Part shown: positions 1-23,300 of the stretch, one piece after another | Numbering within the stretch: position 1 is the stretch's first letter | Layout of the letters: each line of letters opens with the position of its first letter | Notes under the pieces: model-generated | Databases searched by the model: none | The model's input: only the letters and a program-made list of their open reading frames with translations | Told to the model about the DNA's origin: nothing | IMG/VR virus record: IMGVR_UViG_3300037541_000437 | Span: 1-30,194 of that record | DNA: 30,194 nucleotides | Origin: a virus | Direction: 5' to 3' (one strand) | Translations under genes and position numbers: made by a program

Positions 1-1638
1 GAGAATTTAGATACGAAGCCAACTGATTTTAATGATCTTCACTGTCTTGAGGGGCTTCAGGCCGTTGCTGAATGTTTCATCAAAAAGCCAAAGTCTGAAA
101 ATGGGTATATTCCACTAGGAATAGATGATGCGGGATTCCATTTTTTTAACCAAAAAAATCGCATTGTGGTTAGTTTTCAATCCATATCAGAAAGCAGCCT
201 GTTATCGCTCATGCCGCTGGCATACTGGGAAACGCTGTTTCCAAACGACAAGGGCGGCGTTTGTTGGCTGGCAGCTCGTAGCTATGTTATTGAGCAGGCA
301 AAGAGCGTCGGGCTTTATGATAAAAATTTAATCAGAGGCACTGGGGTCTGGAAAGACAACGGCCGCACTGTTATAAATTTAGGCGATAGGATTGAGGGAG
401 ATATATCCAAGTCGAAATATATTTATATCCAGACTCGCAACTCTTTGAACGGGGTGCACCCGAATCCGTTGACTATAGACGAGGCTAATAACTTGGTGAC
501 GGCCTGCAATTCCCTAAAATGGCTTGATGAAAAGTCTGCCTATTTATTAGCCGGATGGATTGCCATTGCTAGAATTGCGGGGGCGCTCCCGGTTCGTCCG
601 CATATTTGGCTGACTGGCGGAGCCGGGACGGGGAAATCGACTGTCATGGATAACCTGATTCGCCCGGCCCTTGGGGGCGAGCATGGGCGTTTTTACCTAC
701 AGGGCGGATCAACTGAGGCCGGTATCCGGCAGATGATCAAGGCCGATTCCATTCCGATCATCTTTGATGAGTTCGAGACAACGAACGAATCAAGTAAAAA
801 TAGGGTTGAGTCCATTGTCGAACTACTGCGCCAGTCTTGGAGCTACACCCAAGGGCACATCGTCAAAGGGTCGGCCTCCGGGGAGGCGCAGCAATACGCT
901 CTCGGCTTCTCAGCGCTGGTCAGCTCTATTCGTGTCTCTCTTAACAATGACGCCGACAGGAGTCGCTTTAGCGTCTTGGAGCTTGATAAGCATGGCAGCG
1001 ATCAAAAGCAATGGACGGAAGCCCGCTCCCGGATGTTAAAAATGACGGAGGAGTTCGGAGAAAGGCTATTCTCTAGGTCCGTCAAGAATATGGACAGCAT
1101 ATTAAAGAGCTATTCAGTTTTTAAATCTGAATTGGCCAATATCGTCAGCCAGCGATTCGGGCAACAATACGGGATGCTATTGGCGGGATGGTTCTCTCTC
1201 GTTTCGGATGATCCAGTAACTATTGAGCAAGCAAAAAGCATTATCGAGTCCTTTAAGTTCTCAGATGATAAGCAAGAGGCGACAATCACCGACGAGCAAG
1301 AATGCCTTGATCAAATTTTGACCACAAGAATCAGTTTGTCCGTTCAGGATTTGCCGCAATCGACACCGATCCGCCTTGAGAAGTCTATTGGCGAAATTTT
1401 ATCGGATAATGTGAAAGGTGAGCTTGAATCTTTGCAGGCTTATGGTATTTTGAAAGATGACCGATCCATATTCGTCGCAAACTCTCATGCGGCGCTTTAT
1501 AAATTTGTTTTTGAGAAAACCCGATGGTCTGGGTGTTGGGCTAAAACTTTAGCCAGACTGCCCGAATCCGAAAAATCCGCACTCAAATGGATTGCCGGAA
1601 AAACGACCAGATGCGTAAAAATTAAACTCCCAGAATAG
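1..1638 (+). CDS. Phage replicative primase/helicase-type P-loop ATPase, 3' part (5' truncated)
   Basis: The reading frame is open from base 1 to the TAG at 1638, so the window begins inside the gene; a GTG at 166 is in frame but nothing suggests it is the true start. At least 545 residues are present. A Walker A loop, GGAGTGKST, is at 616-642. A Walker B strand, IPIIFDEFE, is at 751-777, with D and E at 766-771. A region ending in LNNDADRSRF (about 934-972) looks like the sensor/arginine segment that closes such ATPase domains. The layout, including a GTGVWKDNGRTVINLGD segment before the ATPase and a WSGCWAK...GKTTRCVKIKL ending, resembles phage DNA primase-helicase proteins (DUF927 or primase/polymerase-helicase type). 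Inferred role: unwinding and priming phage DNA. The family assignment rests on motif reading. The N-terminal primase half, if any, is outside the window. An origin-like repeat region follows directly. Confidence 0.8.
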   Translation, partial: ENLDTKPTDFNDLHCLEGLQAVAECFIKKPKSENGYIPLGIDDAGFHFFNQKNRIVVSFQSISESSLLSLMPLAYWETLFPNDKGGVCWLAARSYVIEQAKSVGLYDKNLIRGTGVWKDNGRTVINLGDRIEGDISKSKYIYIQTRNSLNGVHPNPLTIDEANNLVTACNSLKWLDEKSAYLLAGWIAIARIAGALPVRPHIWLTGGAGTGKSTVMDNLIRPALGGEHGRFYLQGGSTEAGIRQMIKADSIPIIFDEFETTNESSKNRVESIVELLRQSWSYTQGHIVKGSASGEAQQYALGFSALVSSIRVSLNNDADRSRFSVLELDKHGSDQKQWTEARSRMLKMTEEFGERLFSRSVKNMDSILKSYSVFKSELANIVSQRFGQQYGMLLAGWFSLVSDDPVTIEQAKSIIESFKFSDDKQEATITDEQECLDQILTTRISLSVQDLPQSTPIRLEKSIGEILSDNVKGELESLQAYGILKDDRSIFVANSHAALYKFVFEKTRWSGCWAKTLARLPESEKSALKWIAGKTTRCVKIKLPE

Positions 1639-1643
1639 GAAAT

Positions 1644-1856
1644 TGTTAGGAACGTAAGTGAGTGTTAGGCAGCAAACCCTTGCAGCCCAACACTCCTAAC
1701 ATTCTAACATTCCTAACACGGAAAAATATATATATAGAAAAATACACAGAGAGAAATATTTATATATATATATATATTTATGTTAGGAATGTTAGTTATG
1801 TTATAAGTCTTGAGGCTCAAGGGTTTCCGGCCTAACATCGCCTAACATTCCTAACA
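1644..1856. repeat. Iteron-like 9-bp repeat cluster around an AT-rich core; candidate replication origin
   Basis: About eleven copies of TGTTAGGAA or its complement TTCCTAACA, exact or degenerate, lie here. Forward copies: 1644-1652 and 1663-1670 (TGTTAGGC). Reverse copies: 1693-1701 (CTCCTAACA), 1702-1709 (TTCTAACA) and 1710-1718 (exact). A (TA)-rich core follows at about 1724-1780. Forward copies resume at 1781-1789 (exact), 1790-1798 (TGTTAGTTA) and 1799-1807 (degenerate), stepping every 9 bp. Reverse copies end the array at 1829-1837, 1839-1847 and 1848-1856 (exact). Ordered arrays of a short site flanking a meltable AT-rich core are typical of iteron origins, and the gene just upstream is a replicative ATPase. 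The origin role is inference. An operator array or a partition site is the main alternative. Confidence 0.6.
1661..1694. other. Imperfect hairpin inside the repeat cluster
   Basis: AGTGTTAGGC (1661-1670) pairs with GCCCAACACT (1685-1694) with one mismatch. An inner GCAA (1672-1675) pairs with TTGC (1680-1683) around an ACCC loop. It starts 22 bases after the stop of the upstream ATPase gene but has no T-run, so it is a poor intrinsic terminator. It includes one of the 9-bp repeats. It may be a structural element of the putative origin. Confidence 0.5.
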
Positions 1857-2070
1857 CTTTGCAAAAATAATAATCACATAGCGTTTAAAATCGTTTATAG
1901 CGATTCTGAGGGGTCGATTCTGTTGGCGTGTCTTTTAATGGGTTAAGAATTTAAATCAATTCTAGCCGTGGTTCCGCTCGAAATTGGGCGGTTTCGTTGC
2001 GTTCGGTCTGGATAGGACCTTAATAAATGTTTGTGTTTAAAAAATAAGCATAACTTTTTTTGTTGAAATG
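1857..2070. other. Non-coding stretch without a recognised element
   Basis: Together with the repeat cluster this makes a 504-base gap without a gene. It has a CGATTCTG direct repeat (near 1901 and 1914), a short inverted repeat AGAATT...AATTCT (near 1946-1963), and a TGTTGAA at 2061-2067 that partly matches the promoter repeat starting 10 bases further on. No tRNA, stable ncRNA fold or supported ORF was found on either strand. Confidence 0.4.
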
Positions 2071-2114
2071 TGTTGACAAAAATAATCTAATTGCCTATAT
2101 TGATTGTGTTGACG
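2071..2114 (+). promoter_or_regulatory. Consensus sigma70 promoter P1 with TGTTGAC repeat at the start site
   Basis: A perfect TTGACA -35 box (2073-2078), a 17-bp spacer and a TATATT -10 box (2096-2101). The predicted start is near 2108, inside a second copy of the -35 octamer, TGTTGACG (2107-2114). The two octamers are 36 bp apart. Two near-copies of this promoter drive the next two cassettes. The octamer at the start site could be an operator. Confidence 0.85.
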
Positions 2115-2142
2115 AGATAAATAACCAACTAGGAGTTACAAA

Positions 2143-2460
2143 ATGGGTAAAGTATATAGAGCTGGCGTATGTTTAACGAGCATGAAAGATGCACAATTAA
2201 ATGGCATCGTCATTGCTGCGGTTGCAAGGGGCGCAGATTTTTCAGAGATCGAATTTTATGCAGAGGAAAACCGTCTTTATGGATGGCGCAAGGCGGTTGC
2301 TTATGCGGCATCTGCTATTGATCGGATTGAATATATGCTTACTGAAACGACCAGAATTGAACCATCCCCAGAATCTAAAATGTGGTCAAATTTTGAAGGC
2401 GGGCATACCTTTCACAAACGCCCAAACGATGATGAAATAATGGGCATGTTATTCAAATAA
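2143..2460 (+). CDS. Small early-region protein of unknown function (105 aa)
   Basis: Not recognised. The ATG follows an AGGAG (2131-2135) with a 7-base spacer, and the mRNA from promoter P1 would have only about 35 leader bases. The protein is small and soluble. Its N-terminal half is mixed (GKVYRAGVCLTSMKDAQLNG), followed by an alanine-rich helix (GWRKAVAYAASAIDRIEYML) and a charged tail. There is no signal peptide, membrane span or cysteine cluster. It is a single-gene transcription unit: a dedicated strong promoter in front and an intrinsic terminator directly behind. This layout is typical of phage genes expressed early at high level, including host-takeover or anti-defence genes, but the sequence gives no specific function. 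Confidence 0.8.
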   Translation: MGKVYRAGVCLTSMKDAQLNGIVIAAVARGADFSEIEFYAEENRLYGWRKAVAYAASAIDRIEYMLTETTRIEPSPESKMWSNFEGGHTFHKRPNDDEIMGMLFK

Positions 2461-2466
2461 AATATC

Positions 2467-2493
2467 GGGGCTAAATGGCCCCTTATTTTTTTT
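2467..2493 (+). terminator. Intrinsic terminator after the first small gene
   Basis: GGGGC (2467-2471) pairs with GCCCC (2478-2482) around a TAAATG loop, followed by TTATTTTTTTT (2483-2493). It lies 7 bases behind the stop codon and 10 bases before the -35 region of the next promoter. Confidence 0.85.
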
Positions 2494-2502
2494 CTAAAAT
2501 AG

Positions 2503-2547
2503 TGTTGACAAAATAAATCCAATTACCTATATTCATTCCTGTTGACG
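2503..2547 (+). promoter_or_regulatory. Consensus sigma70 promoter P2 with TGTTGAC repeat at the start site
   Basis: TTGACA (2505-2510), a 17-bp spacer and TATATT (2528-2533). TGTTGACG recurs at 2540-2547, 37 bp after the TGTTGACA that contains the -35 box. The sequence is nearly identical to promoters P1 and P3, including the AATT(A/G)C just before the -10 box and the following AACTAGGAG ribosome-binding site. Confidence 0.85.
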
Positions 2548-2576
2548 GGCTAAACAATTAACTAGGAGAAATCAAA

Positions 2577-2909
2577 ATGAACGCAATGGAAATCGCACAA
2601 GCAATCAAGGGCCAAATCAGAACGACAGAACTATGGGCAATCGGGGCTAAAAACTTCTTTGTTATTCCAGCCGGACCACAAGTCTCAGGCGGGCTTAGAT
2701 TTGACGCTAGCCTATATGGTCGCGGGAAGTGCCGTGTAGCAATCGGACTTAATGGCAAAGATCTTTATGATGTTTTAATTTGCACAGGTCGCGGATACAC
2801 CAAGATCCTAGCTGAATTTAAAGACGTATTCTGCGAAGATCTTGAGGCATTTGTTGTCGAGGCGCTGGAAAACAAATTTAAAACAGTAGAAGAAAAAGCA
2901 TTTATCTAA
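2577..2909 (+). CDS. Small early-region protein of unknown function (110 aa)
   Basis: Not recognised. AGGAG (2564-2568) lies 8 bases before the ATG; an in-frame ATG at 2586 is a weaker alternative. The protein is a mixed alpha/beta type: an N-terminal helix (MEIAQAIKGQ), a strand-rich middle with IGAKNFFVIPAG and YGRGKCRVAIG, and a C-terminal acidic helix (CEDLEAFVVEALENKF). There is no membrane span or known catalytic motif. It is the second unit of a repeated promoter-gene-terminator arrangement and shares regulation, but no visible sequence similarity, with its two neighbours. It may be an accessory early gene. Confidence 0.8.
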   Translation: MNAMEIAQAIKGQIRTTELWAIGAKNFFVIPAGPQVSGGLRFDASLYGRGKCRVAIGLNGKDLYDVLICTGRGYTKILAEFKDVFCEDLEAFVVEALENKFKTVEEKAFI

Positions 2910-2915
2910 ACAAAA

Positions 2916-2944
2916 GGGGGCCAGAGATGGCCCCCTATTTTTTT
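2916..2944 (+). terminator. Strong intrinsic terminator after the second small gene
   Basis: GGGGGCC (2916-2922) pairs with GGCCCCC (2929-2935) around an AGAGAT loop, followed by TATTTTTTT to 2944. It resembles the terminator at 2467-2493 in stem sequence and position, so the whole terminator-promoter unit appears duplicated. Confidence 0.9.
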
Positions 2945-2953
2945 CTAAAAATG

Positions 2954-2997
2954 TGTTGACAGAATAAACGTAATTGCTTATATTGATTGTGTTGACG
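2954..2997 (+). promoter_or_regulatory. Consensus sigma70 promoter P3 with TGTTGAC repeat at the start site
   Basis: TTGACA (2956-2961), a 17-bp spacer and TATATT (2979-2984), then TTGATTGTGTTGACG as in P1. TGTTGACG is at 2990-2997, 36 bp after the first octamer copy. It drives the zinc-finger-like gene at 3022 and probably the gene at 3260, since no terminator lies between them. Confidence 0.85.
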
Positions 2998-3021
2998 GGG
3001 AAACTAACTAGGAGAAATAAA

Positions 3022-3231
3022 ATGTGGAAGCCAACAATTAAAGCAACATACAAATGTCAGTCACTCAAGCAAGTAATCAATGGCGCAAAGTGCAACAAAA
3101 AAGCCCCAGACGGGGAAAGATATTGCAATGATTGCTGGAGCAAATTGCAAGAAATAACAGCATCATATGAGCCTAAAGAGATTACAGCAGAGAGTCTCCA
3201 TAAAGCATATTTAGATCGTTGCAACGACTAA
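3022..3231 (+). CDS. Small cysteine-rich, probably zinc-binding protein (69 aa)
   Basis: The start is the ATG at 3022, placed by AGGAG at 3010-3014. An upstream in-frame TTG at 2974 lies inside promoter P3, before its start site, and cannot be used from that transcript. Cysteines at residues 12, 24, 35 and 38 (KCQ, KCNKK, RYCNDCW) give a C-x11-C-x10-C-x2-C pattern that could bind one zinc ion, like small phage zinc-ribbon regulators. A helical, charged C-terminal half follows. No named family is recognised. A nucleic-acid- or protein-binding role is inferred only from the cysteine pattern. Confidence 0.8.
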   Translation: MWKPTIKATYKCQSLKQVINGAKCNKKAPDGERYCNDCWSKLQEITASYEPKEITAESLHKAYLDRCND

Positions 3232-3259
3232 AAAGCAAACTTGAAAAGGAACCGATACC

Positions 3260-3571
3260 ATGAACCAAGCCAAACTATTCCTCGAATCCTGCAAACAACA
3301 CGGATGGACACCATCCATTCGTGGGTCTGTTGTCTCTATCGCAAAGTCCTTCACTCCGGGCGATACACAGGCATTTGTCGATTGCGACGCCATGGCATAT
3401 TATCTATTAGCCATGGTTCATCTCAAGGGCGGTCCAATCTGGGGCACCGATGGCGGATCGGTCGGCGGATATGTGGCGGTTAAAAACGGCCAGTACGTTC
3501 TTAATAAGTCAGGAAATGGAAAGCGATTTATAAATCACTTGCAAAAAAATTTGATATCATCTATCAATTAA
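3260..3571 (+). CDS. Small early-region protein of unknown function (103 aa)
   Basis: Not recognised. AAAGGA (3245-3250) lies 9 bases before the ATG at 3260. It follows the zinc-finger-like gene by 28 bases with no terminator or promoter between them, so both should come from promoter P3. The protein begins with an amphipathic helix (NQAKLFLESCKQHGW), has a glycine-rich middle (GGPIWGTDGGSVGGYVAVKNGQ) shorter than a typical fold core, and a basic C-terminus (GNGKRFINHLQKN). There is no membrane span or catalytic motif. The overlapping frame at 3241 is open but lacks a sensible ribosome site. It is the last gene before two terminators. Confidence 0.75.
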   Translation: MNQAKLFLESCKQHGWTPSIRGSVVSIAKSFTPGDTQAFVDCDAMAYYLLAMVHLKGGPIWGTDGGSVGGYVAVKNGQYVLNKSGNGKRFINHLQKNLISSIN

Positions 3572-3600
3572 ATTCCTAGTGAACGTCAACGCTGGAGAGA

Positions 3601-3634
3601 AGCCGCCGATTAAAAACCGGCGGTTTCTTTTTTC
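3601..3634 (+). terminator. Intrinsic terminator closing the early region
   Basis: CCGCCG (3603-3608) pairs with CGGCGG (3618-3623), with a flanking G-T and A-T pair, followed by TTTCTTTTTTC. It is 30 bases behind the stop of the last early gene. Confidence 0.85.
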
Positions 3635-3658
3635 TTCGTAAAATGTAATCATGAAATA

Positions 3659-3690
3659 ACAATGATCAAAATATGGTCATTGTCTTTTTT
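3659..3690 (+). terminator. Second terminator in tandem before the late operon
   Basis: ACAATGATC (3659-3667) pairs with GGTCATTGT (3675-3683), with one G-T wobble, around AAAATAT, followed by CTTTTTTG. With the terminator at 3601-3634 it separates early from structural genes. No clear sigma70 promoter is visible between it and the small terminase gene. Confidence 0.7.
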
Positions 3691-3734
3691 GTTTTTAATT
3701 TTGATATAAAAAGATTTTAACGAAAGTATTAAAA

Positions 3735-4187
3735 ATGGCTAATGGCTTTAAAACTGGCGGTAAAAACTTTAAAAGGGGATGGGTTTCTAATCCTAATGGC
3801 CGTCCACCGATTCCCGAAGAATACAAGAAACTGCAAAAACTAAACGCTGATCAATTCAAAGGCATGGTTGCAAAGTTTGCACTCATGACAGTTTCGCAAA
3901 TGAATGAATACTTGTCCAGAGATGACGTGCCAGTTTTTGAGGCGATGATTGGTAAAATCATAAAAGTCTGTATAGAGTCCGGCGATCACGCCAAGTTAAA
4001 CTTTTTGCTGGACAGGACTATAGGCAAGGTCAAAGAAAACGTGGAAGTCTCTATTGCTCCACAGATCACATACAAAACGACCATGACTGAGGACGGTCGC
4101 ATGGTGCAAGATATTTTGACGCCGCAACTACTGGAGGCCGAATACAGTGACTCAGGAAATAACAATACAGCCACCGACCCCGCATAG
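3735..4187 (+). CDS. Terminase small subunit (DUF5681-like N-terminus)
   Basis: 150 residues. The N-terminus has the GWVSNPNGRPP motif typical of DUF5681-type phage proteins that precede the large terminase. A helical middle and a KLNFLLDRTIGKVKE segment follow, also common in that family. Its position directly upstream of, and overlapping, the large subunit supports the call. Its role would be recognising the packaging site on concatemeric DNA and loading the large subunit. The ribosome site is weak (GAAAG, 3722-3726). It is the first gene after the tandem terminators, so the late transcript must start in the 50 bases before it or reach it by antitermination. The last 41 bases overlap the next gene. 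Confidence 0.8.
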   Translation: MANGFKTGGKNFKRGWVSNPNGRPPIPEEYKKLQKLNADQFKGMVAKFALMTVSQMNEYLSRDDVPVFEAMIGKIIKVCIESGDHAKLNFLLDRTIGKVKENVEVSIAPQITYKTTMTEDGRMVQDILTPQLLEAEYSDSGNNNTATDPA

Positions 4188-5532
4188 TAAAAAGCAAGAA
4201 TTGATCATGAGGGGGTTCTTATTCCCGACGGTTAATGAAATCGTGGTTGTATGTGGAAGCAAATTCGGAAAAAGTTTGTCCGCTTCGGCTTGCCTGACTA
4301 ATGCGGCAATGGTTAAGAGGGGAGCTAATTGGCGATGGATAGCACCGATATACCGACAGGCTAAAATCGGTATGAAATACTTTAAAGGAATCTTGCCTCC
4401 GGCTCCTCATTCTGATTTTGTCGAATCTAAAATGATGATCAATCTACCTAACTTGGATTCAAATATTGAATTCTGGCATACCCAAAACCCTATGGACCTT
4501 GAAGGCGCTGGCATACATGGCCAGATATTAGATGAGGCAGCTAAAATGCCTTATCAGGCATATGTCTCGTCAAAGACCACCACCACCCAGACTAGGGGGA
4601 AAACGATGATGATATCGACCCCGCTAGGCAAGAACTGGTTTTACAAGAAATACATGGAATGCAAGGAGCAAATGGACTGGGCCATTAAACATGGCAGGGA
4701 GCCTCTCAAACTGGCTATCCATGCGCCGACAAGCGCTAATCCGTTTGTCTCAAAGGAAGTGCTGGAGGCCGCAAGGAAAGAGCTTCCGGACCGTCTTTTC
4801 CGCCAGCACTACCTTGCCGAATTCTTAGATGAGGGGTCGGTTTTCGTCGGATTTAGGGATTGCACTGAAGGCGACGAATTGCCCGTTTTCGGCGCTATTC
4901 AACAATGGATATGTGATAAGCCCGAAGATATTGACGTTGTAATCGGGGCGGACTGGGCGAAGCAACACGATTACACGGTGTTCACGGCTATTGATTACAA
5001 ACATCCAAAGCCCAAAGTAGTCGGATTTATGCGCTTTCAAAGCCTTAAATATACTGACGCAATCGTGGAGCTTTGGCGATTTGCCAAACAATTTAAAAGC
5101 ATCGGCCATATCCTGCATGACAAAACTGGGGTCGGCGAAGCGATTGATGATATGCTGGTTAAGACCGGGTTGCCGTTTTCTGGCTTTCTATTTACGAATC
5201 AATCAAAGTCCAGCCTAATAAATAGGCTGATGATTAGGTTTGAGCGAAATGATATAATTATTCCAAACTGGACGGAACTATTAAAAGAATTGGAAGCTTT
5301 TGAGGTTGAAGTCTCGGAAATCGGGACAATGAAATACAATGCTCCGGCAGGTATGCACGATGATACCATCATGAGCTTGGGGCTGGCGGTTATGGCATAT
5401 GAGGAATATGCTGGGGGATTTGAGCTTCGATTTGTTGAGGATTTGCCCTATGACAAAAACCTAAATCGGATTCTCAATGATATGATGGATGAAAGCGACG
5501 ATGATAAACACCTATTCGGGCGGGGCTTTTAA
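4147..5532 (+). CDS. Terminase large subunit (packaging ATPase and nuclease)
   Basis: 461 residues, close to normal length. It is the motor that pumps DNA into the prohead and cuts it to length. The ATPase domain has a variant Walker A, CGSKFGKS (residues 36-43), a Walker B, ILDE (127-130), and a coupling motif MMISTPLGKNWFY (154-166). The RNase H-fold nuclease has the three expected acidic sites: GADW (D269), HDKTGVG (D325) and HDDTIMSLGLA (D405/D406). The start is a GTG at 4147, chosen because TGGAGG (4132-4137) is 9 bases upstream. The alternative ATG at 4207 would cut into the region before Walker A. The gene overlaps the small subunit by 41 bases and abuts the portal gene, fitting translational coupling. 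Confidence 0.95.
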   Translation: MTQEITIQPPTPHSKKQELIMRGFLFPTVNEIVVVCGSKFGKSLSASACLTNAAMVKRGANWRWIAPIYRQAKIGMKYFKGILPPAPHSDFVESKMMINLPNLDSNIEFWHTQNPMDLEGAGIHGQILDEAAKMPYQAYVSSKTTTTQTRGKTMMISTPLGKNWFYKKYMECKEQMDWAIKHGREPLKLAIHAPTSANPFVSKEVLEAARKELPDRLFRQHYLAEFLDEGSVFVGFRDCTEGDELPVFGAIQQWICDKPEDIDVVIGADWAKQHDYTVFTAIDYKHPKPKVVGFMRFQSLKYTDAIVELWRFAKQFKSIGHILHDKTGVGEAIDDMLVKTGLPFSGFLFTNQSKSSLINRLMIRFERNDIIIPNWTELLKELEAFEVEVSEIGTMKYNAPAGMHDDTIMSLGLAVMAYEEYAGGFELRFVEDLPYDKNLNRILNDMMDESDDDKHLFGRGF

Positions 5533-16224: not shown

Positions 16225-16415
16225 CTTGGAATGATTTTGATGGGATAATGGTGGCTGATTCTGGGGAAGGGTGGTTTTGGGTTATTCTTAAAAATGGTTC
16301 AAAACTACAACTAGATTCAGATGATGATTTTTTAAAAAAACTAGGAGTTACCAAAAATGAAAGTGAAGCTAAAAAAATTCAGACGTGCGAATCAGACAAA
16401 CCTTGTACACATTGA
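16218..16415 (+). CDS. Possible very small protein (up to 65 aa), start uncertain
   Basis: Not recognised. The frame fills the 132-base gap between the amidase and the next gene. A TTG at 16218 overlaps the amidase stop; an in-frame ATG at 16248 with GATGGG before it is the alternative. The protein is acidic and aromatic in the middle (GEGWFWVILKNGSKLQLDSD). It overlaps the following gene by 59 bases. Continuous tight packing of the operon argues that the gap is coding, but no ribosome site is convincing. Confidence 0.45.
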   Translation: MLTWNDFDGIMVADSGEGWFWVILKNGSKLQLDSDDDFLKKLGVTKNESEAKKIQTCESDKPCTH

Positions 16416-20341: not shown

Positions 20342-23300
20342 ATGGCGGTTAGTGAAAATCTTTTAATAAATGTTAAGGTTAAAAAAGATGGCTCCATAAA
20401 GGGCGCTGAATTAGAAGTTTCAGCGTTTCAAGAGGCTCTTTCGTCTTTAAAATCAGAAATTAAATTATTATCTGAATCGACTAACAGGCTTTCAAGGGAA
20501 AACGAGATACTCGCCAAAAGTTTTAAGAATTCTAACTCTGATTTAAAACACTCAGAAAAATCATTTAAAGATATTGCGGCAGGGGCTTATTTGGCATCTT
20601 CGGCGATGGACGCATTGTCAAAAGCTGTTTCGATGATTCTAACCGCAGATTCAAGAAAGCGCCTCATAGATATTCTTAGAATTTTTGCGGCATTGGCAGA
20701 TTCAAAGGGTCTAACAAGATTATCCGACAGAATAAATTATCTAAAAGAAATGATAGTAAAACTCGATGAGGTCATGAGGGAATACCATCTAAATAGTACG
20801 CAAGATTTTGGATCAGTGGCCGATTATATCGAGAAACAAATTCTTCTTTACAAAACATTTTCAGCCGTGGCAATTGCTGGAGTCATTGCGGCGACAGCCT
20901 ATGCGTCTAAAGAACTTTACAAATTTGCAATGTCTCTTGATGAGGTTAAGTACGCAATTTATAGAGTCAGAAATATATATTTCAGACTTGATGACATTTT
21001 GCGACGACCCGAAGGAATGGAGATATTAAAAAGAGAGATTTGGGCAACAGCGGCAGCGTTTGAAGCGATGACAGTCATATACTTTAAAAGGTTTAAGGTT
21101 GCGTCTATAGACGCAATGAAAGCGGCAGGGGTTGCGGCTGTTGATTTTTCTCAAAAAATAAAATCATCTATCGAGAATTCTATTGGTAAATCATTGTTTT
21201 TTGCCGAACAAAAAATAATAGGTTTTAAAAACCTGTATATATCAGGGATAAAGGCTATATCTGGAGAAGTCGCAAAAGAATTTAAAGACGGATTTTCACT
21301 ATCAAAGTATTTAACTAAATTTATAAATGATTTCAGGAGCGAATACGCATCTGTTCTCATGATGATCAGTGTAAATAATATCTCTATAAAAAATTCATTT
21401 GTGCAAATGTTTAGGATTATCGCAGATGCGGGGAGAATTGCCGCAATAGGTGTGGCTGATGTTATTCTTACGTTTATCGCCAGTGTTTCTAAATTTTCAG
21501 GCATATCGTCAGCAGTATATGCAATGACAGGGTTCTTTAAAGATGCTTCAGTTGCATCTTCAATGTTCTTTGAATCAATGAAGAAAGGAACAGGGTACGC
21601 AGCGGCGTTTAACGCTTCTATGGCATCCATTGTGAGGCTATTTGTCGGATTTCTTCCGTTAATAAGCCAGATTTCGATTCAATTCATACCTATTATATCC
21701 ATAATATTTAATATCCAAAATGCTATAAATGTTTTGATCCCAACATTGAAGGTTTTTTATGGATACCTGCAAACTCTTTCGATGTTTGTTCCTTCATTTG
21801 TTTCATCTTTAAAAAATATAGGTTCATCATTTGCTGGTCTTGTTGGATCAATTGGAATTTTATTTAGCGAATTTGGTAAAAATGGATACAAAGATTTGAC
21901 CACTTTTTTCACAAAGCTAAAATCTATATTTTCAGCGTTATATTCTGAGTTTAGTTCCGGAATTGTTGAATTTGTAAAAAAGATACCCTCAAGTTTGTCT
22001 AGCGCATGGTCCGGAGTTTCTGGATTTTTGACAAAACTAGCGGATTCTGGTGCATCGGCTCTTTTGAGTGGATTTAACAGCCTTGCATCAAAATCCACAA
22101 ATGTAGGAAAAAGCATATTTGAAGGAATTAAATCAGGATTGGCTAGGGGCGTTAAAGAGGTTTTCACAAATGCCGACCTTATAGTCAAGGCTGGCGCTTT
22201 CGTTACTCACCCACTCTTGTTGTTTGGAAATGCGGCGCTTTCTTCTGACAGTGGCTTGGTAAAATTTGCTGGAACTTTGTCAATCGTTGCCGGAATACTT
22301 ATCGGTGGATTCTCGGCGGCTATTGTTTACGCTTTGGGCGCTATAGGAAATTTCGTTGAATCAATTGGAGACAAGTTGATTTCAACAATGGATAAGATGG
22401 AAGAAAAATTTATAAAGTCGCAGCAGGTTGTTAAGTCGTTTGCTTTTGTTGTTACAGGTTTTGGAAAAACATTCGGTGAATCAACGATAGGAAGTTTAGA
22501 ACAATGGCAAGGCGTTGTTTCTAAAATAACTGAAAAAACTATATACGGCACTGATGAAGTAAATAAAGCAATCAAGATAATGATTGCAGAGGGTGCGGCT
22601 CTTGGTCTTAATTTTACTCAAAATGTTGAATTGCTCAACAGGGCGCTTGATGTTTCTGCATCCCAAGGAAGGGATTTAACCGAGGTTGCCATTGCATTGG
22701 CTTCAGGTCTTATGGGTCAATCCCAGAGCGTTCTTTCTCTTGGTATAAACTTAAAAGAGAGTCATTTAGAACATTCAAAATTCTTGGTTTCTCAAAATAA
22801 ACTTTTAGATGATTTGAGCGATACAGAAAAAGTACAATTAAGATATAACGAGGTTCTGGCCCAGACTGTTCCTATTCTCGGAGCGGCATCATCGCAGATG
22901 GATACCGTTGCCGGTTCTTCTAGGAAGCTAGAGCAGGCGGTTGATTCTATATCTGTAAAACTAGGAGCCATGGGATTCGCTACGGAATACCTTTTAAAAA
23001 CACAGCGAGAACTTGCGTCTGTTTTTTTAAGTCTTCCTGATGTTGTCCTTAATGTTATAGGTGTTTTCTGGGATTTTTCTGGAGTTATTCTAAAAATAAC
23101 CGGAATATTGATAAAATATGCAGTGATCATTTCAAGTCTTGCGGTTACATATAAAATTTTATTGTGGGCCACGACTCAAAACGCAATGGCTCAGGGCGTT
23201 TTAACGGTTGCAATGAATGTTTTAGGTAATGCGGCGGGTGTTCAAACCGTTGCCGTTACATCACTTGGTGTTGCATGGTCAAATTTACTACTCATTCTTA

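Follow-up and report, generated by a model that had tools for sequence, protein, structure and literature searches.

Promoter early stem-loops (PeSLs) are composite terminator-promoter motifs which are repeated between small genes and have been linked to gene shuffling. They were reportedly described in T4-type myoviruses, by Arbiol in 2010 and by Comeau in 2014. This work is cited in passages of PMC4503421 and PMC3950731, and it appears as a reference in PMC5348500. In cluster K mycobacteriophages, the sections of PMC3203893 and PMC11373665 dealing with ESAS/SAS elements describe a SigA-like promoter and a conserved sequence in the Shine-Dalgarno (SD) region before small non-structural genes of different families, while the passage of PMC3950731 on the haloarchaeal virus HGTV-1 describes a repeated TATA-like motif with an inverted repeat before most left-side ORFs, proposed as an aid to shuffling.

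The locus considered here lies in an IMG/VR record of one uncultivated virus, analysed over its whole stretch of 30,194 bp (hereafter, the window), and is best read as a set of PeSL-like repeated regulatory cassettes, earlier described in T4-like phages and here found in a siphophage. As in PeSLs, there are sigma-70-type intergenic promoters (assigned by sequence match), a stem-loop terminator is joined to the promoter (in leaders 2 and 3, leader 1 having a T-run only), and several similar copies occur per genome, three in the window. On the other hand, there are only three copies, and they carry an extra box at +1. Different genes between the same boundaries were seen in Titanviruses and Rhizobium phages, no close relative of the window having been found for comparison. 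The term PeSL-like was therefore preferred to PeSL in the strict sense, since the window belongs to a siphophage instead of a T4-type myovirus and shuffling was shown only in other phages. The ESAS/SAS elements, in the sections mentioned, share with the window a promoter and an SD-region sequence repeated before small genes of different families, but ESAS has inverted repeats where the window leader has a direct TGTTGAC repeat, and in place of a 13-bp SAS of the GGGATAGGAGCCC type near the start codon (consensus as given in PMC3203893) the window leaders have AACTAGGAG and an A-rich spacer. Similarly, HGTV-1 has, in the passage cited, a repeated promoter motif before many ORFs, although of the archaeal promoter type.

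Organisation of the three-unit array

The window also contains genes for a portal, a protease, an HK97-type capsid, a head-tail adaptor and a 2003-aa tape measure, and it is a siphophage fragment according to the HK97-type portal, protease and capsid and the long tape measure. The array is placed among small genes between the primase gene and the terminase gene (Table 1). Directly 3' of the primase gene (1640-1860), an AT tract lies between copies of CTAACATTCCTAACA/TGTTAGGAATGTTAG in direct and inverted orientation; these repeats are iteron-like and might mark a replication origin.

Table 1. Coordinates of the array and of its neighbouring genes in the window
Feature	Position	Strand	Description
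Primase/helicase-like gene	166-1638		
Cassette leader 1	2055..2142	+	T-run 2055-2061, TTGACA 2073-2078, 17-bp spacer, TATATT 2096-2101, TGTTGACG 2107-2114, AACTAGGAG 2127-2135
Gene 1	2143..2460	+	105 aa, credible homologue not found
Gene 1 terminator, fused to leader 2	2467..2493	+	6-bp stem with 5 GC pairs, T8 run
Cassette leader 2	2486..2576	+	T-run, TTGACA 2505-2510, TATATT 2528-2533, TGTTGACG 2540-2547, AACTAGGAG 2560-2568
Gene 2	2577..2909	+	110 aa, placed by alignment in the widespread phage family phrog_9437, motif LNGKDLYD
Gene 2 terminator, fused to leader 3	2915..2944	+	9-bp stem, 7 GC pairs, T7 run
Cassette leader 3	2938..3021	+	T-run, TTGACA 2956-2961, TATATT 2979-2984, TGTTGACG 2990-2997, AACTAGGAG 3006-3014
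Gene 3	3022..3231	+	69 aa, cysteine-rich
Gene 4	3260..3571	+	103 aa, second gene of unit 3, homologue not found
Terminator closing unit 3	~3602..3633	+	-22.1 kcal/mol for 3590-3640
Terminase large subunit gene	4147-5532		

The initial annotation had pointed to three perfect promoters (TTGACA, a 17-bp spacer and TATATT), which were recovered exactly at P1 (2073-2101), P2 (2505-2533) and P3 (2956-2984). These were the only three occurrences of TTGACA-N17-TATATT on either strand of the window, each 5' of an unrelated small gene, and no exact match arose in 60 runs of a first-order Markov simulation of the window. The flanks that the promoters were said to share were likewise confirmed by alignment, with 77.5% identity over 138 alignment columns between leaders 2 and 3, from within the terminator of the preceding gene to the ATG (E 4e-21), and 79.8% over 94 alignment columns between leaders 1 and 2, starting at the T-run and again reaching the ATG (E 7e-17). 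The similarity extends well past the promoter hexamers, as the repeat spans the entire intergenic region, ~91 nt at P1 and ~130 nt at P2 and P3, where it takes in the terminator of the preceding gene. Moreover, the distance from the T-run to the -35 box was 11 nt in all three leaders, for which reason the T-run may additionally serve as an UP element.

A second box, TGTTGACG, overlooked in the initial annotation, was found 36-37 nt 3' of TGTTGACA in all three leaders, at a position overlapping the expected transcription start. All eight of its columns were invariant across the leaders, compared to 33 of the other 62 non-box leader columns, the probability of such invariance at that rate being 0.006. 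To judge from its position, the box could be an operator or an initial transcribed sequence; a second promoter starting from it was ruled out by eye, the -10 box being absent at 17 nt. This invariance would suit a purely regulatory origin, in which duplication of the leader lets a single regulator (TGTTGAC at -35, TGTTGACG at +1) control several fixed genes, with no cargo exchange in the lineage, but the leader copies are homologous and hence the agreement at TGTTGACG is not independent. None of the three leaders folded notably better than shuffles in the search for a 5'-leader RNA hairpin (z-scores of 1.78, -0.14 and 1.08), and we therefore do not propose a structured 5' UTR; an Rfam search of positions 1500-4000 gave no match at the gathering score.

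The terminase, portal, primase, gene-1, gene-2, gene-4 and leader-pattern queries did not retrieve a close relative of the window from the phage or viral-contig collections, from which very near records are possibly absent. Among viral contigs, the terminase query had a single match, of 28%, on a contig of 4 kb; the phage matches to the terminase and portal queries were all below 60%, the primase and gene-4 queries had no match in viral contigs, and blastn of positions 1600-3800 had none in phages. Two-box leader patterns, one of them with one surplus spacer base, had zero matches in viral contigs. In genome contigs, for which a two-box pattern was the sole query, three matches appeared that were read as chromosomal: two promoters before tRNA-like sequences (Lachnospiraceae) and one before an S21-like ribosomal protein gene, these identities being our own reading. 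A looser pattern of the promoter plus AACTAGGAG matched 41 viral-contig stretches, 24 of which corresponded to the same gene in different contigs, and no second box was seen by eye in any of the 41.

Host sigma-70 selects for its consensus, which the hexamers of P1-P3 match at 11 of 12 positions, so that three strong promoters might have become alike by convergence, without duplication, as the similar double boxes at the three chromosomal promoters and the 41 viral stretches would allow. However, the similarity covers the T-run, the spacer, the +1 box and the terminator at the E-values given above, and this flank identity contradicts convergence, which is considered highly improbable. The ribosome site invoked earlier as a shared element proved a weaker argument than had been stated: AACTAGGAG is indeed present in all three leaders, but it also occurs at 16339 and 19430, 5' of the ORFs at 16357 and 19446, respectively, and within the tape-measure ORF at 22959. 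Since it precedes two other window ORFs and joins TTGACA-N17-TATATT in the viral-contig stretches, AACTAGGAG does not define the cassette.

The similar GC-rich terminators that had been noted at the end of the first two genes, directly before the next promoter, were corroborated by stems at 2467-2482 and 2915-2936 followed by T-runs, with folding energies of -13.0 kcal/mol (2455-2495, z -2.65 vs. shuffles) and -20.2 kcal/mol (2905-2946, z -4.08 vs. shuffles), respectively. The terminator of unit 3, whose 9-nt loop exceeded the limit of the hairpin scan, was detected by folding; this unit comprises genes 3 and 4 and is closed by a strong terminator. At P1, the T-run is present and a hairpin directly 5' of it is absent. 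Thus, the modular terminator-promoter-gene units first described are real, but the terminator is carried by two of the three leaders. As a terminator precedes each next promoter, each gene would be expressed alone (genes 3 and 4 together in the last unit).

Own promoter and own terminator are the architecture of morons, and the window units, with both, fit it, in which case the genes would be independently expressed prophage cargo and not lytic early genes. Nevertheless, the scan of window genes, which covered a subset of the ORFs of a fragment record, revealed neither an integrase nor a repressor, and four of the five Titanviruses compared below appear as lytic in Table 3 of PMC8601537 (RcMotherGoose is absent from that table). 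The lysogenic reading was accordingly judged improbable.

Cargo genes and the family of gene 2

The genes behind the leaders had been called unrelated by eye, and blastp among genes 1-4 agreed, with no similarity up to an E-value of 10. In tblastn searches, gene 4 had no match and gene 1 a single one at E 0.2. Gene 3 reached the Pfam family DZR_2 at E 0.002 and 18.4 bits, below the cut-off of 27, and its product is perhaps zinc-ribbon-like.

Gene 2 alone matched phrog_9437 only at E 0.17. Among 20 aligned gene-2 relatives, 18 matched this family at E≤0.001, with a best value of 8.5e-35. Gene 2, which is outside these 18, aligns with those relatives at the LNGKDLYD motif, with phmmer E-values down to 3e-9 in the fetched ORF set, and on the strength of these alignments it is assigned to phrog_9437. 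None of 20 family members matched Pfam, and the best hit of the family in the PDB by sequence was only E 0.26, with no credible solved relative. The AF2 model of gene 2 (HH-EEEEE-H, mean pLDDT 79.9) had no match among PDB structures at E≤0.001, its best VIA-align Z was 7.3, within the range that the tool calls common, and its best matches in the viral structure library were unnamed or uncharacterised proteins. As no structural match was confident and the Z of 7.3 is in the common range, no function is claimed for gene 2. A PADLOC link to PbeC, found for one of 20 family members at 0.007, was not taken as evidence.

A search with a three-sequence alignment (A1) provided 35 viral-contig loci with gene-2 homologues, and two homologue proteins used as queries provided 49 and 14 phage records, 15 regions of which were examined. 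In some of the loci, the gene-2 domain lies inside longer ORFs of 237-865 aa (L071 188-2785, L080 1340-3052, L081 1322-3349 and L072 1946-2659), in which no Pfam family was found and one EzrA match stayed under its cut-off.

Repeated leaders and cargo exchange in other phages

The 120 nt 5' of each gene-2 homologue were searched for same-strand recurrence within 2.5 kb before and 3 kb after, at a threshold of E<1e-6. With the window counted, 8 of 38 loci had a repeated upstream region (7 of 37 when the window is left out), and the other 30 had none. In comparison, such a region preceded 20 of the 320 further ORFs in these loci (Fisher P-value of 0.014), several of the 20 being partner cassettes, and, in 14 viral loci unrelated to them, 2 of 210 ORFs (P-value of 3e-5). 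The ORFs of both controls are mechanical, the former on the + strand, of at least 60 aa and including window ORFs, and the latter of at least 80 aa on both strands, taken from 14 of the 41 promoter-pattern loci. Left out of the 38 loci were ten IMG/VR loci treated as near-duplicates because their coordinates were identical and their scores the same or almost so (L053-L056, L063, L066, L070, L074, L077 and L078), L085 as a near-duplicate of L084, and the loci with the domain within a long ORF (L071, L072, L080 and L081). The repeated leader is therefore enriched at the gene-2 family, yet it is not its rule.

Besides the window, the positive loci were those of Microbacterium phage Zeta1847 (L007), Rhodobacter RcSpartan (L084), Agrobacterium Milano (L092) and Rhizobium RHph_Y52 (L093), and the viral contigs L057, L065 and L067. 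In L065, copies of one leader precede the gene-2 homologue and then an ArdC-type anti-restriction gene (2911-3813; Pfam ArdcN 5e-29 and MPTase-PolyVal 5e-30), a neighbour that offers one hint on cargo function. The units of L052 (terminator, T-run, promoter and gene) are much like those of the window, with an E-value of only 1.5e-5 for its gene-2 leader. In Zeta1847 (L007 589-2999), a 118-nt block occurs three times (69-72% identity) across the start codons of different genes, and in Tunturiibacter phage Tunturi_5 (L089 491-3016), strongly repeated regions lie 5' of five mechanical ORF starts close to the gene-2 homologue, within a stretch that has little annotation. The repeats of L067, L074 and L077 lie at nearly the same coordinates, and these loci were thus excluded from the exchange test.

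Direct evidence of cargo exchange, in the form of cargo replaced behind a conserved promoter, came from other phages with gene-2 homologues; it supports the mechanism for the window by analogy only. Five Rhodobacter Titanviruses (RcSpartan, RcMotherGoose, RcTitan, RcHartney and RcThunderbird) were compared in the region after the primase, common to all. At slot 44, the leader is kept through the ATG, and the coding sequence then differs completely: the cargo is a member of the gene-2 family in RcSpartan and RcMotherGoose, a 56-aa protein in RcTitan and RcHartney and a 57-aa protein in RcThunderbird (best blastp E of 0.33 between the three kinds), behind leaders 74-100% identical over 100 nt, the annotated start of RcTitan having been shifted to the ATG aligning with the other four phages. 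The promoter has TTGACA in three phages and TTGACG in two, followed by N17 and TATATT, so that three of the five are TTGACA-N17-TATATT, as in the window. At slot 38, the cargo of RcMotherGoose is unrelated to that of the other four (E 0.67), with leaders 89-97% identical. Gene groups 39, 40, 42 and 43 are common to all five phages, and most slots between the primase and the HTH gene are hence stable; group 41 is also common to the five by clustering, although RcMotherGoose and RcSpartan match there over only 25 residues. Swapping thus affects some Titanvirus slots, not all.

Slots 44 and 38 resemble the window in the gene-2 homologue (two of five phages), in the promoter at slot 44 and in an array placed after a replicative primase/helicase gene; slot 44 differs in that its -35 box lies inside an inverted repeat and no T-run terminator fused to the promoter was seen by eye. 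In this inverted repeat (L084 3880-3990 and L099 3655-3785), the -35 box occupies the loop and the arms changed together, GCGCCGAAGG..CCTTCGGCGC vs. GCGCCGAACC..GGTTCGGCGC, which suggests a constrained dyad or hairpin. For these R. capsulatus phages, PMC8601537 already describes a variable gene content in the right-hand part of the genomes, and the words 'promoter', 'intergenic' and 'terminator' are absent from its main text; no description of the promoter-slot swap was found in the literature searched.

Two further comparisons involved Rhizobium phages. The leaders of Y52_123 and Y60_122 are 91% identical and their cargo is unrelated (E 0.37), while gene 124 of TM3_3_9, the Y60_122 homologue, comes straight after the hairpin of the gene-2 homologue, without the intervening gene and promoter, which shows the gain or loss of one unit. 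An exchange between Agrobacterium Milano and OLIVR4 was dropped, the upstream identity being only 0.56.

These comparisons also bear on the purely regulatory origin of the leaders. The absence of TGTTGACG from the slot-44 leaders, meaning that the box is not needed for exchange there, and the stability of most Titanvirus slots speak for it, whereas the unrelated cargo behind each window leader and the swaps in the other phages fit exchange; this origin is regarded as rather unlikely.

Interpretation of the array

The favoured explanation, held to be probable, is that the three units represent a copied intergenic regulatory block before unrelated small accessory genes, with cargo exchangeable by recombination. 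The window itself contains the repeated block, the terminators and unrelated cargo. One intergenic block (terminator T-run, strong host sigma-70 promoter, +1-region box TGTTGACG and SD) would have been copied; the host RNA polymerase would read all three units early, as the consensus promoters suggest, and each terminator would end its unit just before the next promoter. Because the boundaries are alike and every block brings a start and a stop of its own, a gene could be replaced, added or lost by recombination in or beside the leader with its neighbours undisturbed. We infer the early timing, the recombination route, exchange in the window phage and an accessory function of the cargo (host takeover or counter-defence). 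The locus probably serves as a plug-in point for accessory genes, and sites of this kind are already on record.

A broader proposal is more tentative. Proteins of the gene-2 family may travel repeatedly as passengers in portable promoter slots, and phages of alphaproteobacteria, of an actinobacterium and of uncultured hosts would independently run terminator-promoter-start arrays as landing sites for counter-defence or host-takeover genes; the shared leader, not cargo homology, might then be used to find anti-defence genes, and the paired TGTTGAC boxes found here would bind a phage-specific switch over all slots.

Overall, the same logic in a siphophage, together with a widespread gene family and the swaps seen in phages of Rhodobacter and Rhizobium, points to a general way for phages to exchange small genes. 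It also gives a practical handle for the discovery of small genes, which may be searched for behind a repeated leader, one neighbouring cargo being the ArdC anti-restriction gene.
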